A DNA stretch of 64,000 bases from an uncultured Paracoccaceae bacterium. GTDB lineage: Bacteria > Pseudomonadota > Alphaproteobacteria > Rhodobacterales > Rhodobacteraceae. The notes under the pieces were generated by a model. That model worked only from the letters and a program-made list of their open reading frames with translations. It ran no database searches and was not told the origin of the DNA. Positions within the stretch are counted from its first letter, which is position 1; every line of letters begins with the position of its first letter. Location of the stretch: contig CALICM010000005.1 of assembly GCA_938049225.1 (NCBI GenBank), forward strand, positions 1-64,000, in the 5' to 3' direction. Both the position numbers and the translations under genes were made by a program. Shown in pieces: positions 47,515 to 53,403 of the stretch.

Positions 47515-49305
47515 TTAGTTTGAGGCGCGAACGCTCTGCGCCCCTTCTGCGCCCTCTTTAGGCAAGGGTCGCATGTTCATCAATGGCGCGATCCGGCGGA
47601 TGATCTCGGACGCCACGGGCGCGGCGGTCCAGCCCGCCGTACGGCGCGCTTCGCGTCCGGACCGGTCTTCGGGCTCGTCCAACGCGACGACCAAGACATA
47701 TTCCGGATCATGCGCGGGGAAAATCGAGGCAAAGGTGCCGATCACCTTTTCCTTATAGTACCCACCCGTGTGTTTGGGCTTATCCGCCGTCCCGGTCTTG
47801 CCACCGACCCGGTACCCTTCGGCATTCGCAAGCGTCGCAGTTCCCCGCACGACCACCTGCCGCAACATCTGGCGCGCGGCGCGGCTCGTCTCGGCCCGCA
47901 CCACCCGATCCGCCTCGGTTGGCAGGGGCGCCCCCGCCAATAGCGTGGGCCGCACCCGCAACCCGCCATTTGTCAGGGTCGCATAGGCCGTCGCCAAATG
48001 CAGCGGTGTCGCGGCCAACCCATGCCCATAGGATATCGTCATGGTCGAGATTTCGGACCAACGTTTCGGCACCAAGGGCCGAGTTTTGCCGGCTTCGGGC
48101 AGCGTCACTGGCACCGGCTCCATGAACCCAAGCTGTCGCAGAAATTCCTTCTGCCGGACCGCGCCGATTTCAACCGCCACGCGGGCCGTGCCGATGTTCG
48201 AGGATTTAACGATCACATCCCGCAAACTCAGCGTCGGGCCATAGTTCCGGAAATCGCGGATCCGAAATCGCCCCCAAGTCAGCGGCCCTGAAGTATCGAT
48301 CACCGTGTCCGGCCCTGCCAACCCCAGTTCCATCGCCTGGGCTGCCGTAAAGATCTTGAAAGTCGAGCCCAGCTCGTACACCCCCTGGGCCGCGCGGTTG
48401 AAGATCGGACTATCGGACGGATCCCCGCTGGCGGGCGGCAAGGGTCGTTTATTCGGATCGAAATCGGGCAGCGAGACCATGGCGACAATCCGCCCGGTCT
48501 TTGCCTCCATCAACACCGCCGCAGCACCCTTGGCGTTCATCAGACGCATGCCGCCCGCCAAGACGCGTTCCACTGCCGCCTGGACCGACAGATCGATGGT
48601 CAGCTGCAGCGGCGCGCCTTCGTTCACGGGATCGCGCAAGAACTGGTCGAAGGCCAACTCAACCCCGGCCGAGCCAACCACTTCGGCCGCATGCACCCCC
48701 TCGCGCCCATAGCCGTATCCGCCCAGAATATGGCTCGCGAGGCGCCCATTTGGATAAAGCCGCATCTCTCGCGGGCCGAACAACAACCCCGGCTCACCCA
48801 GGTCATGCACCGCCTGGCGTTGCTCGGGGCTGAGCGTGCGCTTGATCCACAAAAACCGGCGTTTTCCGCTGAACCGCTTCAGCAATTCGGTCTCGTCAAG
48901 ATCATCAAAGATCCGCGCCAATCCCGCCGCCGCCGCGACCTTGTCCACCATCAAATACGGCTGGGCATAGAGGCTGGCGGTCTGCATATTCGTCGCCAGG
49001 ATCGCGCCATTGCGGTCCACGATATCCGCCCGCTGCGCAACGATCCGCGCGGCACTCGCCGTCGCCTTGGGCTCCACCGGTTCCGAGGACGCAAGCACGC
49101 TCATTCGCGCCGCCACCGTGCCAAAGGCCAAAATAAAGGTGGCCGCCAGCAACCACAGCCGATGCTCGGCCCGCCGCCGTTCAGCGCGGTGGCGCAGACG
49201 CATTCTGGCGGCGCGCTCTTCTGCCTCGACCCCATCCGGGTTCTCGCCTTGCGCGCGGGCCTTGAACACCCGGGCCAAGGGGCGCAACGGCCTGCGCGAG
49301 GTCAT
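47515..49305 (-). CDS. ftsI: Septal peptidoglycan transpeptidase FtsI (PBP3)
   Basis: The division-specific class B penicillin-binding protein. After a basic cytoplasmic tail with one membrane helix (LWLLAATFILAFGTVAARM, about residues 51-70) come the dimerisation domain and the transpeptidase domain: SxxK in ELGSTFKIFTAAQAM, SxN in VKSSNIGTARV and KTG in VGGKTGTADKP. The start is [18 protein letters not shown] at 49305 (596 residues), overlapping the ftsL stop by four bases; the ORF-track start is 62 codons too early. Confidence 0.95.
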   Translation of the reverse strand: MTSRRPLRPLARVFKARAQGENPDGVEAEERAARMRLRHRAERRRAEHRLWLLAATFILAFGTVAARMSVLASSEPVEPKATASAARIVAQRADIVDRNGAILATNMQTASLYAQPYLMVDKVAAAAGLARIFDDLDETELLKRFSGKRRFLWIKRTLSPEQRQAVHDLGEPGLLFGPREMRLYPNGRLASHILGGYGYGREGVHAAEVVGSAGVELAFDQFLRDPVNEGAPLQLTIDLSVQAAVERVLAGGMRLMNAKGAAAVLMEAKTGRIVAMVSLPDFDPNKRPLPPASGDPSDSPIFNRAAQGVYELGSTFKIFTAAQAMELGLAGPDTVIDTSGPLTWGRFRIRDFRNYGPTLSLRDVIVKSSNIGTARVAVEIGAVRQKEFLRQLGFMEPVPVTLPEAGKTRPLVPKRWSEISTMTISYGHGLAATPLHLATAYATLTNGGLRVRPTLLAGAPLPTEADRVVRAETSRAARQMLRQVVVRGTATLANAEGYRVGGKTGTADKPKHTGGYYKEKVIGTFASIFPAHDPEYVLVVALDEPEDRSGREARRTAGWTAAPVASEIIRRIAPLMNMRPLPKEGAEGAQSVRASN

Positions 49306-49652
49306 TGCGTCGCCCCCCCAAGCACTGCATCCAGCACATCGCCTGCCAGCCGGTCCTCGGTCGCGGCTGGGGGAAAGGCCACCTCGGCCGGATCCGCGAA
49401 ATGACCTGCCGTCATCGGGGCCAGGCCCAACTCGGCGAAATACTCTTCGGCCAGGACGCGGAGCCGATCCGGCCGGTTCAAATAGGCCCATTCCGCGTTT
49501 AACATCGCGATCGTGCCGCGCTCCTGCGCCATCTCAAGGCGCAGCCGCTCCACGTCGCGCACCGCTTCCTGGGTGGTGTAATTGACTTGGTAGGCCCAAA
49601 AGGCAAAAGCTACGACCAAGGCGCTGGCCGCAATATACAGCAAGGTTCTCAT
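49302..49652 (-). CDS. ftsL: Cell division protein FtsL
   Basis: A small bitopic divisome protein (116 residues) that forms a complex with FtsQ/FtsB and activates FtsWI. It has one membrane helix ([22 protein letters not shown]), then a leucine-zipper-like coil ([44 protein letters not shown]). The [14 protein letters not shown] segment is typical of alphaproteobacterial FtsL. It overlaps both rsmH and ftsI by four bases. Confidence 0.92.
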
Positions 49653-50638
49653 AAAACCCCCTCGATCGCCACGGCGGGCAATCCGAACACACGTATCTCG
49701 ACATCCCCCGCCGGCGCTTCGGTCCGCCGGGCCATGCGCAACTTGGCGGATCGCGCCCGGGGATTCGCGGCCACCTCGGCCTCGGACGCCTCAATGGCCT
49801 TGCGCGTGATCAGATCGAACCGCGCGTCTTCCACGACCACTTCGGGCTGATAGCGGCTGCCTTGCGCGGCACCGCCGCTGCGGGCCCGCAAAAACCGCTT
49901 CACGATGCGATCCTCCAGCGAGTGAAAGCTTACCACCGCCAAGATGCCGCCGGGCCTGAGCGCCCGCTCGGCTACCATCAGTCCGCGCGCCAAAACGCCC
50001 AATTCATCATTCACAGCGATCCGCAAGGCCTGAAAACTGCGGGTGGCCGCATGTGGCTGCCCGGGCTTGGGGCGCGGCAATAGCCGTTCGATCAGCCCAG
50101 CCAACTGCCGCGTCCGCGTAAACGGCACCGCGACGCGATCCGCCACCACCGCCCGCGCGATCCGCCGGGCGGCCCGCTCTTCACCATATTGATGCAACAC
50201 ATCCGCCAATGCGGCCTCGCTCAGCCCGTTTACCAGATCCGCGGCACTCGGCCCTGACTGCGCCATGCGCATGTCCAACGGCCCGTCTTTGGTGAACGAA
50301 AACCCACGCCCCGCTTGATCCAACTGCATCGAGCTGACGCCAATATCCAAAACAACACCGTCCAGCGCCTCGCCCGCCAACGTGTCCAAGTCGGCAAAAT
50401 TGCCCTGCACCAGGCGCAGCCGGTCCCCATACTCGGCGGCCCAGTCCCCAGCCCGGGCGAAAACCTCCGGATCTTGATCGACCCCGATCACCCTTTCAGC
50501 CCCAGCCTCTAACAAGGCTCGGCTGTATCCACCGGCCCCAAAAGTGCCGTCCAGCCAGACGCCTGAGATCGGGGCGGCACGGTCTAAAAGCGGCGTCAGC
50601 AGCACGGGAATATGCGGCATGGACATGGCCACAGTCAT
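49649..50638 (-). CDS. rsmH: 16S rRNA (cytosine1402-N4)-methyltransferase
   Basis: Methylates N4 of C1402 in 16S rRNA. It has the N-terminal [11 protein letters not shown], the SAM motif [20 protein letters not shown], the specific [15 protein letters not shown] and the C-terminal [20 protein letters not shown]. 329 residues. It overlaps mraZ upstream and ftsL downstream by four bases each. Starts further in ([10 protein letters not shown]) are possible, but ATG 50638 gives the ATGA overlap. Confidence 0.96.
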
Positions 50639-51138
50639 CCGCCCAACCGTGCCTTATCCAGTAAGGCGAAGGGGCTGTTGGCCTCGTCCTGACCCTCCAG
50701 CCATGCGCCAAGACCCGCCATATCGGCGGCATAGGCGCTGGGCTCCCAAATTTGAAACTTATCGCCCATCCCCGCAAAGGTGGCTTCCGCCGTCACACCG
50801 ATCATCTGGCGCAGCTTCTGGGGTAGGACCATGCGCCCATTCTCGTCAACCTGGGCATAGATCGACTGGGTGTTCAGAATACGCTCAAGCGCCACCCGAT
50901 CCTTCGAGAACCGCGGGAGGGCCGAGACCATGTCGTCGACCTCTTCGATTGAGCGCATCGAATACCCTTCAAGGCATTTCGATCCAGGCAGACCATAGAC
51001 AATGACCAAATTCGGCTGGGCACCGGCGACCCAATCGGGGTCCCCCTCCTCTAGGACACGGCGGAAGGGGGCCGGGATCGACACCCGGCCCTTACCGTCC
51101 ACTTTGTGGACGCTTTCGCCTCTGAAACGTCGTGCCAC
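50635..51138 (-). CDS. mraZ: Transcriptional regulator MraZ
   Basis: A DNA-binding protein that controls its own dcw operon. It has two SpoVT/AbrB-like domains ([24 protein letters not shown] and [36 protein letters not shown]). 167 residues. The start is GTG 51138, with AGGAG seven bases upstream. It is the first gene of the dcw cluster. MraZ-type boxes lie in the promoter (51401-51445). Confidence 0.96.
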
Positions 51139-51183
51139 GTTTCAACTCCTGCCCAAGCCCAACGGGGTCGATCCCGGTGGGGC

Positions 51184-51228
51184 CAATGAAAAAGGCGGCC
51201 GCGCTCTTATCTGGCACGGTCCGCCTTT
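51184..51228 (-). terminator. Intrinsic terminator inside the mraZ leader
   Basis: On the minus strand a stem AAAGGCGG(A)CCG...CGGCCGCCTTT is followed directly by TTTTTCATT, a clear intrinsic terminator. It lies between the promoter and mraZ, so it would stop most transcripts before the operon unless it is read through. Confidence 0.75.
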
Positions 51229-51385
51229 GTCTTGCCGTTTCGGCCGCGTCCCTCAGGCGTTGACTGCTCGGATGCCGTCAGGGACACTTATTCTTGCGGG
51301 AAAGAAGCGGGCCTGTATGAAACCTGCTCTGGTTTGGTCGTCTCCGAAGTCTGTCGCCCCGTGATCCGTGCCGCGCCTTTCCGTG
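51184..51385 (-). ncRNA. Long mraZ leader, UpsM-like sRNA candidate
   Basis: Transcription from the promoter at 51392-51420 would begin near 51385 and meet an intrinsic terminator at 51184-51228, giving a ~200-nt RNA that ends about 45 bases before mraZ. In Rhodobacter sphaeroides an sRNA of very similar size (UpsM) arises in the same way from the mraZ leader. Position, length and terminator fit; I have not compared the primary sequence. Confidence 0.6.
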
Positions 51386-51391
51386 AGATGA

Positions 51392-51420
51392 GGTATGGCA
51401 TGGAACTACGTGGTAATCAA
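51392..51420 (-). promoter_or_regulatory. Probable mraZ (dcw) promoter
   Basis: The minus strand has TTGATT (51420-51415) and CATACC (51397-51392) separated by 17 bases, a fair sigma70-type pair. The -35 hexamer lies within the MraZ-box array, which fits autorepression. Confidence 0.5.
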
Positions 51421-51445
51421 TGGGAATTTTATGCACAGCGTGGGA
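51401..51445 (+). promoter_or_regulatory. MraZ operator: TGG(G/A/T)A boxes at 10-bp spacing
   Basis: On the plus strand TGGAA (51401), TGGTA (51411), TGGGA (51421) and TGGGA (51441) lie exactly one or two helical turns apart; only the 51431 position is missing. MraZ of E. coli binds TGGGN boxes separated by five bases, i.e. the same 10-bp period. The array overlaps the mraZ promoter. Confidence 0.7.
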
Positions 51446-51939
51446 TTTAACCAGGATTCATGGTGGATGATCTCACCAATACTCACATACCAGTGTTAAG
51501 TTAATACAACATAAGGGCTCATCCCCAATACAAACCACCATATATTGCGAATACACTTTGTGGGGATCAGTTCCCATCTCAGGCCTATGAAATCCCAGCG
51601 CACCCCAATAATTTCGACGGCATGCTGGTTTCTCCCCATGGTTATCCACAGGTTCCTGGTGGAATTGCCCGTTTCGTTGAGTCGCGGCATAAACAAGTAA
51701 GCCCTCCGCTTCCCGCCTCAGGCCCGCGATCGCTGAAAAGAACATCGTTCATTTTTTGAAACATTGCTTCTGGGCCCTCACGACTGCGGCACTCCAATCG
51801 GGGCTTTGTGACAGAGGTCTGTTACAACTTCTCACAGCCTGCAGCCTCGCACTGACCTTCCCGTGAGCCCCCCTGCCCCGGCGCCATGAAATCAGCCATC
51901 TATGCTCCATCCCGCAGACATTCTCTGAAAGGTGCTGTC
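51446..51939. other. Non-coding region upstream of the dcw promoter
   Basis: About 490 bases without a convincing gene between the mraZ promoter and the small membrane gene. AT-richer than the flanks. It contains a perfect DnaA-box sequence TTATCCACA (51642-51650) and an imperfect repeat GGGGATCAGTTCCCA (near 51558). The 90-codon minus ORF here has no family features. Confidence 0.45.
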
Positions 51940-52467
51940 ATGAAAACGCTCTCAACTGCCTGGACCGTCCTTATTGCCGGGGCCCTGGCCACGGTTGCTT
52001 TCGATCTTTTTGGCCAAACCCTCAGCCCGCTGCTGTCTTTTGTCCCCACCCTAGGCCCCAAGCTGGCGCCGGTGCCGCTGGCTACATCCTCCCTGGCCGC
52101 GATAACCGGTATCCCTGGTAAAGAGCTTTCGGCCATTGGACTGCCGCACGGTCTGCACATCCTGACCGGCCTAATCGCCTATCCGCTCGGCTGGCTGCTC
52201 GTTGCGCGTCCAATCTGGAACCGAACCCTGCCAAGCTTGCCCTGGATCGTGCCGGCAGTGGCCTATGGCGTCGGACTGTGGATCTTCGCGCTTTATGTCA
52301 TGGCGCACCTGGTCGCCGGCATGCCCGCATTCCTCGGTTTTTCGGGTATCACCTGGGTCGCACTTTGGGGACATATCGTGTTCGCCGTAGTCGCAGCCGC
52401 GGTGATCGAGGCCCGCATGCCCGCCACCGCCTCTTCGCGGCGCGCAACCTCCATCGCGCCTGCTTGA
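51940..52467 (+). CDS. Hypothetical four-helix membrane protein
   Basis: The 175-residue protein has four membrane segments (WTVLIAGALATVAFDLFGQTL, HILTGLIAYPLGWLLVA, PWIVPAVAYGVGLWIFALYVMAHLVAGM, VALWGHIVFAVVAAAVIEA). The start is placed at MKTLSTAW (AAAGG seven bases upstream) rather than 18 codons earlier. I do not recognise the family by name. It is an isolated gene with long gaps on both sides. Confidence 0.7.
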   Translation: MKTLSTAWTVLIAGALATVAFDLFGQTLSPLLSFVPTLGPKLAPVPLATSSLAAITGIPGKELSAIGLPHGLHILTGLIAYPLGWLLVARPIWNRTLPSLPWIVPAVAYGVGLWIFALYVMAHLVAGMPAFLGFSGITWVALWGHIVFAVVAAAVIEARMPATASSRRATSIAPA

Positions 52468-53403
52468 TCGACAACCCAGCACAGGACGCGCCTGCCGCAT
52501 TGCGCGCCCTGTGCTCTGATGGTGAAAGCTGGCCACTGACCTGAGCAGGAAAGCCATATGCAGCCGATTCGGACTAGCCGCACAATTTCAGGTTGATTCG
52601 CTGAAATTCGCTTGAGTCTGATGGACAATATTTTGAGCATCAGAAGTGTAATCTTGACTAGACACTTTCCTGCCAAAATTGAATTTCGTTAATTTTCGCG
52701 ACAATCCCGCCTCATGACACCTTGGCCGATCCAGTTTGATCACCTCGCAGCCACAATTTCAGCCGCCTAAAGCGTTAAATTGCAATGTGTGACCCCGCCG
52801 ACCGCCTTACTTGCACTGCAGCCTCTTACACTTGGTAAAAATTAACCTTTAGGCAAAAAGCAGCCAAAACTCTCCTATCTAGGGCTCGTTATGTTAACAC
52901 TTAGTTTACCTATATGTGGGGAGACACCCCATTGGCGCCACATTCCTGCCTTGATCTGTGCCTAACTTCTGCTTCAAGGGGGCGTGTAGAGCAGTTCTTG
53001 TCGGACCGGCCGACACAAGGAACAGCGTAGAGTAGCGTCAACGGGCAAGTTTTTGAGTGTGTGTTCGCCCAATGTACCCAAGATCCCGGCCAGCCCCCGG
53101 CCGGAGCTTTGACCCAGATTAAGGGGGGTCAGTTATGCAAAGTGGGCGGCAAAAAGACCCCACAACTGTAGCGTGAGTAAGTAAGTGTAAACACGAGTGA
53201 GTAGCAAAACCGGGGGGCGTTTCCCTCTCAGCGGGGAAATCGCCTACCCCTCCGGTTGTGTTTCAGCGGCAAGCAAATCACGTCAAACGACATTTCTGTG
53301 ACCGACGACAGGTCAATGGCCCGGGTTCAGGCCGCGCGGATAACCCGCCGTTGTCCACACGTCTAGCCGCGTCCGCCGGGCGGCGACACCCGCGGCAAAT
53401 GCG
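52468..53403. other. Long non-coding region with several inverted repeats
   Basis: Some 936 bases with no ORF I can support. The first half is AT-rich and includes TTAA-N7-TTTA (52894-52908), one mismatch from the CtrA box TTAA-N7-TTAA. The second half is GC-rich with three stems: 52994-53023 (GTTCTTGTCGG/CCGACACAAGGAAC), 53086-53104 (CCGGCC/GGCCGG) and 53208-53257. A structured RNA, a degraded mobile element, or both could lie here. Confidence 0.45.
53208..53257 (-). terminator. Long hairpin, possible terminator of the 53404 gene
   Basis: A ~50-base inverted repeat (minus strand AACCGGAGGGG..GGCGATTTCCCC / GGGAAACGCCCCCCGGTT) is followed on the minus strand by TTTTGCT. It lies about 150 bases past the stop of the beta-hydroxyacid dehydrogenase gene. 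The T-run is short, so it may equally be part of an RNA structure. Confidence 0.4.

Follow-up and report, generated by a model that had tools for sequence, protein, structure and literature searches.

How is the dcw cluster, which is among the most conserved operons, transcribed when a terminator separates its promoter from its first gene? The question arises from the minus strand of a 64,000-nt stretch of contig CALICM010000005.1 (hereafter the window), which holds the beginning of the cluster with mraZ, mraW/rsmH, and an FtsI-type transpeptidase. The original prediction placed a hairpin and T-run between promoter and mraZ and read the stretch in front of the gene as an UpsM-like sRNA of ~200 nt. 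Taken whole, the locus is very probably best explained as an UpsM attenuator of the dcw cluster that is controlled by MraZ and targeted by a second sRNA, StsR. Conserved as the operon is, its expression in one large family would then pass a terminator and be tied to stress by another RNA. The features of the locus are:

47515-49491, minus strand: FtsI-type transpeptidase, downstream of mraZ in the dcw cluster
49649-50638, minus strand: mraW/rsmH, downstream of mraZ in the dcw cluster
50635-51138, minus strand: mraZ, first dcw gene (GTG start; Pfam MraZ, E 7.8e-17), with AGGAG 7 nt upstream of the start
51139-51385, minus strand: mraZ/dcw 5′ leader, ~247 nt, with the transcription start placed by homology with Rhodobacter sphaeroides
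51392-51420, minus strand: sigma-70-like promoter from sequence, TTGATT (51415-51420), 17 nt, CATACC (51392-51397)
51401-51425, plus strand: TGGAA-N5-TGGTA-N5-TGGGA, three MraZ-type boxes that overlap the promoter

UpsM (RSs0682) of R. sphaeroides is a 206-nt sRNA that comes from a 268-nt mraZ leader and ends at a terminator, with read-through into dcw of ~1%, or about 1 in 100 (Weber 2016, PMC5089854). It is abundant, bound by Hfq, and cut by RNase E, which leaves a 130-nt fragment, and its published fold consists of R1 with a long closing stem, ~10 unpaired nucleotides, a long R2, a 4-bp R3, and the R4 terminator; an sORF in UpsM is described as confined to R. sphaeroides (PMC5089854). We recognized R. 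sphaeroides as genome G054 (100% PufX identity, with the PufX sequence checked against PDB). In its leader (L053), counting 268 nt back from the GTG places the start directly downstream of a promoter, 206 nt reaches into the terminator, and the ATG-started sORF is present as published. Read from L053, the 130-nt fragment would have its 5′ end in the 3′ arm of the stem that closes R1, and by analogy the R1 3′ arm in the window would be the counterpart of the place where RNase E cuts UpsM.

Aligned on the R. sphaeroides start, the window leader begins at about 51383-51386, which fits the 5′ limit of 51385 given originally, and its fold reproduces the R1-R4 layout of UpsM element by element:

51299-51382, minus strand: R1 domain, a predicted long-range stem around the conserved motif
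51311-51327, minus strand: ultra-conserved GCAGGTTTCATACAGGC in R1, predicted StsR pairing site 1, 17 nt perfect
51246-51287, minus strand: R2 hairpin from the fold, with base pairs that covary in relatives
51263-51270, minus strand: CGAGCAGT in R2, proposed second pairing site for StsR, complementary to its nt 1-8
51234-51244, minus strand: R3, a 4-bp hairpin in the fold, as in UpsM
51184-51228 (about), minus strand: R4 intrinsic terminator and predicted sRNA 3′ end, from sequence, fold, and covariation

The hairpin and T-run thus lie where they had been predicted, with the right stem, on the minus strand, which had been left unsaid. Position and size (~200 nt) match both published UpsM (PMC5089854) and L053. 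Further likenesses are the putative single upstream promoter, TTGATT-N17-CATACC at a matching distance, the terminator, the GCAGGYTTCATACAGGC motif, and CGAGCAG in R2. Compared in sequence with R. sphaeroides UpsM, the motif is 16/17 identical and CGAGCAG and the promoter spacing are shared, while the rest has strongly diverged. The window leader is shorter (247 nt vs. 268 nt), and its R2 has diverged outside CGAGCAG and lacks the C-rich loop; this departure from the typical R2 of the family counts against the UpsM reading. It also contains no ATG and therefore no ATG-started sORF like that of R. sphaeroides, and a leader-peptide attenuator, looked for by ATG starts only, was not found. On balance, the comparison supports the window leader as a genuine UpsM-type leader, the counterpart of R. 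sphaeroides UpsM.

The terminator consists of AAAGGCGG-A-CCGTGCC...GGCGCGG-CCGCCTTT followed by TTTTTCATT, with a stem of 8 pairs, a bulged A, and 7 pairs (-24.3 kcal/mol), and for the 202-nt stretch as a whole the folding energy is -78.6 kcal/mol, compared to -63.6 +/- 4.6 for shuffles (z -3.28). A consensus promoter and terminator scan of the window leader picked up neither element, a point against the UpsM reading; the bulge and the CATACC -10 box fall outside the scanner rules. For comparison, mraZ was found in 292/298 family genomes, and about 120 family leaders were extracted, nearly all from separate genera; nearly all of them share the anatomy of the window leader. Taking as a terminator any hairpin under -12 kcal/mol with T-rich DNA behind it, we find one in 116/118 family leaders (median -28 kcal/mol), and the first 60 real leaders all passed this criterion vs. 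19/60 when shuffled. The terminator is not a chance feature, since it is conserved across the family leaders. RNAalifold on 52 sequences from 52 genomes recovered the R4 stem and the base of R2, with compensatory changes at 16/20 pairs, including most pairs of the terminator stem. In most genera the R4 loop GTGGCAGC is more conserved than its structure requires.

The strongest conservation in the leader is found not in these stems but in GCAGGTTTCATACAGGC within R1, which is near-invariant in ~120 leaders. Among 80 named loci (including Ruegeria, Roseovarius, Marivita, and Pseudoruegeria), 78 had enough upstream sequence and 72 of those carry the motif; this set overlaps the genome set in Halovulum marinum (G002) and Oceanibium sediminis (G003), both of the window's genus. 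Where the motif seemed to be absent from a genome, the reason was mostly a small indel (GGTTCATACAGGC, GGCTTTCATACAGGC) or a contig cut short. The motif is enclosed by the R1 stem in 102/118 family folds vs. 64/118 with shuffled flanks, a predicted closure only modestly above the control, which counts against the UpsM reading. In three AT-rich genomes (L007, L009, L010) R1 is shrunken or altered and (C)ATACAGGC and the promoter boxes are kept; those parts therefore resist reduction.

The reverse complement, GCCTGTATGAARCC, was sought in 15 genomes; nearly all gave the leader match plus a single additional exact site (in G144 and G048 the leader match carries one mismatch). This further site lies inside an sRNA gene of 72-76 nt, the StsR homologue. 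Reportedly, Grutzner in 2021 described StsR as an sRNA targeting UpsM. In the published accounts, StsR (RSs0827) is a 72-nt, RpoHI/RpoHII-dependent RNA (PMC8307010) that targets UpsM, whereupon RNase E gains access to a formerly paired region (PMC8307010, PMC8625941, PMC11354728). The R. sphaeroides copy returned by our search fits that description. The copy in the window's own genome lies outside the window:

G000:C12:13819-13894 (L148:1482-1557): StsR homologue, 76 nt with the full T run

StsR genes consist of a hairpin, GGUUUC-UUGCCUGUAU-GAAACC, followed by a terminator, and nearly all copies are preceded by a CTTGG-N-TATAA-type (heat-shock-sigma-type) promoter. The first 41 nt are identical in the 15 genomes searched. 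A covariance model finds StsR in 292/298 family genomes, normally as one copy, and in 261/263 good family genomes; the StsR sequence of G230 was left out. Among ~380 other genomes of the class there was no convincing case, and StsR-like matches in two non-family genomes (E 5e-4 to 8e-4) were rejected for want of a coinciding GCCTGTATGAAACC-like site. Rfam has no family for StsR above the gathering score, and matches to suhB (21 bits vs. a cut-off of 41) and asX2 (35 vs. 70) were taken as chance. The likeness to published StsR is that of an own-genome homologue with a putative RpoH-type promoter, the loop GCCUGUAU, a length of 72-76 nt, and complementarity to the leader.

At site 1, leader GCAGGUUUCAUACAGGC is predicted to pair with StsR GCCUGUAUGAAACCUGC, perfectly over 17 bp in the window's genome and with one C-A mismatch in R. 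sphaeroides. Duplexes of 118 leaders with consensus StsR range from -40.6 to -22.0 kcal/mol at this site (median -33.0), whereas shuffled StsR gives a median of -11.2 and reaches the weakest real value in 1/590 cases; duplex predictions run without restriction were scattered along the entire leader and were left out of site claims. Because the StsR of the same genome matches the leader base for base, the UpsM/StsR control circuit looks nearly universal across the family. The original UpsM paper called the R1 domain hardly conserved (PMC5089854); the complementarity explains its most conserved part.

Co-folding the window leader with StsR gives -116.9 kcal/mol vs. -102.3 for the separate RNAs, and the closing stem of R1 opens in the predicted pair, in agreement with the RNase E access that the published accounts attribute to StsR. 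When the R1 motif alone is blocked, the closing stem stays closed in the prediction.

The second conserved element of the leader, CGAGCAG in R2, matches the StsR 5′ end: StsR nt 1-8 (ACUGCUCG) complement leader CGAGCAGU at site 2. In 27 leaders without the usual R2 C-rich loop, no hexamer is commoner than GAGCAG (18/27 vs. 2.1 in shuffles), an enrichment that is partly shared descent, since about ten of the 27 still resemble the usual R2. The co-fold of the window leader and StsR does not form site 2, so the proposed contact rests on conservation rather than energy. We regard as evenly balanced the proposal of a family-wide two-point clamp, in which the StsR loop and 3′ stem strand and the 5′ end grip the R1 motif and the R2 CGAGCAG at once, with both RNAs held almost invariant. 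Trans-covariation between leader and StsR was not found broadly, because StsR nt 1-41 hardly vary. In one supporting case, G105, a change in one of the two RNAs is compensated in the other (own pair -32.7, consensus StsR -29.9); one opposing case is G032, in which both RNAs are changed and pairing is no better (own -17.4, consensus -22.1), which counts against the UpsM/StsR reading. Compared to the work on UpsM (PMC5089854) and to StsR as described in PMC8307010, PMC8625941, and PMC11354728, what is added here is the family-wide match to StsR, especially the possible second contact.

In most genera (e.g., L017, L053) R2 has a highly conserved C-rich loop, ACATCCCCCCAGGTGG, which the window's clade lacks. 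StsR pairing does not explain it, and it may be a separate target-binding site.

A long structured leader with a terminator at its end might also be a ligand-sensing riboswitch, with R2/R3 as the aptamer and a ligand deciding whether R4 forms, a possibility raised by the R. sphaeroides authors (PMC5089854). We consider this very unlikely: an Rfam search gave no match to the leader and identified no aptamer or riboswitch family, R2 has diverged in the window's clade with CGAGCAG retained, StsR complementarity accounts for much of the conserved sequence, and R2-R4 refolding was reported as not conserved (PMC5089854). SreA/SreB of Listeria (cited in PMC5089854) resemble the present case as sRNAs produced by leader attenuation. 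They are riboswitch-derived, however, whereas the window leader has no ligand or aptamer evidence and its effector would be another sRNA.

Equally improbable is a constitutive attenuator, with fixed partial termination keeping dcw low and neither a regulated step nor a partner in trans. A strong terminator would suffice for the low read-through known from R. sphaeroides (PMC5089854), but the same genome carries a 17-nt perfect complement of the leader within a conserved, stress-type sRNA gene.

UpsM is further marked by a sole dcw promoter, with its start ~250-270 nt upstream of mraZ. Promoters of the TTGATT type with MraZ boxes lie ahead of the leader across the family, with TTGATT...TATACC/TATCCC at the equivalent position in relatives. 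In the E. coli type of dcw control, MraZ autoregulation acts via TGGGN boxes. The TGG boxes of the window share the promoter location and 10-bp spacing of that system, and two of the three are degenerate (TGGAA, TGGTA). At least two TGG boxes at 10-bp spacing occur on 78/118 family promoters (3 expected from shuffles), which supports putative MraZ autocontrol of the dcw promoter; the overlap of boxes and promoter in the window fits the MraZ involvement that had been suspected. Least probable of the alternatives is a separate promoter near mraZ that supplies dcw transcription and leaves the upstream RNA as an independent sRNA: outside the family mraZ transcripts typically start within ~70 nt, but the terminator ends only 45 nt before mraZ, sequence inspection and a consensus scan found no promoter-like site in that gap, the TTGATT-type promoter and MraZ boxes lie upstream of the leader, and in R. 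sphaeroides, with its single upstream dcw promoter and none close to mraZ, 188- and 67-nt upstream fragments had no lacZ activity (PMC5089854).

We therefore return to the UpsM attenuator with StsR as its partner, for which the following sequence of events may be proposed. A single promoter ~247 nt ahead of mraZ, under putative MraZ autocontrol, would drive all dcw transcription. By analogy with R. sphaeroides, most transcripts would stop at R4 and yield the ~200-nt sRNA, and a minority would pass it and reach mraZ and the division genes. When cells are stressed or enter stationary phase, an RpoH-type sigma factor would make StsR, whose loop and 3′ stem strand would pair with the R1 motif over 17 bp while its 5′ end probably pairs with the R2 element. 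Pairing would open the R1 closing stem and expose it to RNase E, lowering both UpsM and dcw mRNA, with the effect on growth expected by the same analogy. So far the mechanism is known from experiments chiefly in R. sphaeroides; the conservation turns it into a testable rule for the family and gives the exact bases to mutate on leader and StsR.

Farther upstream, several relatives (compared: L002-L005, L007, L009, L013) have an RNase P RNA gene in front of mraZ. An Rfam search found none in the window, where 51386-52500 carries instead an ORF (51928-52467, plus strand) without a Pfam match; the region upstream of the leader has therefore been rearranged.
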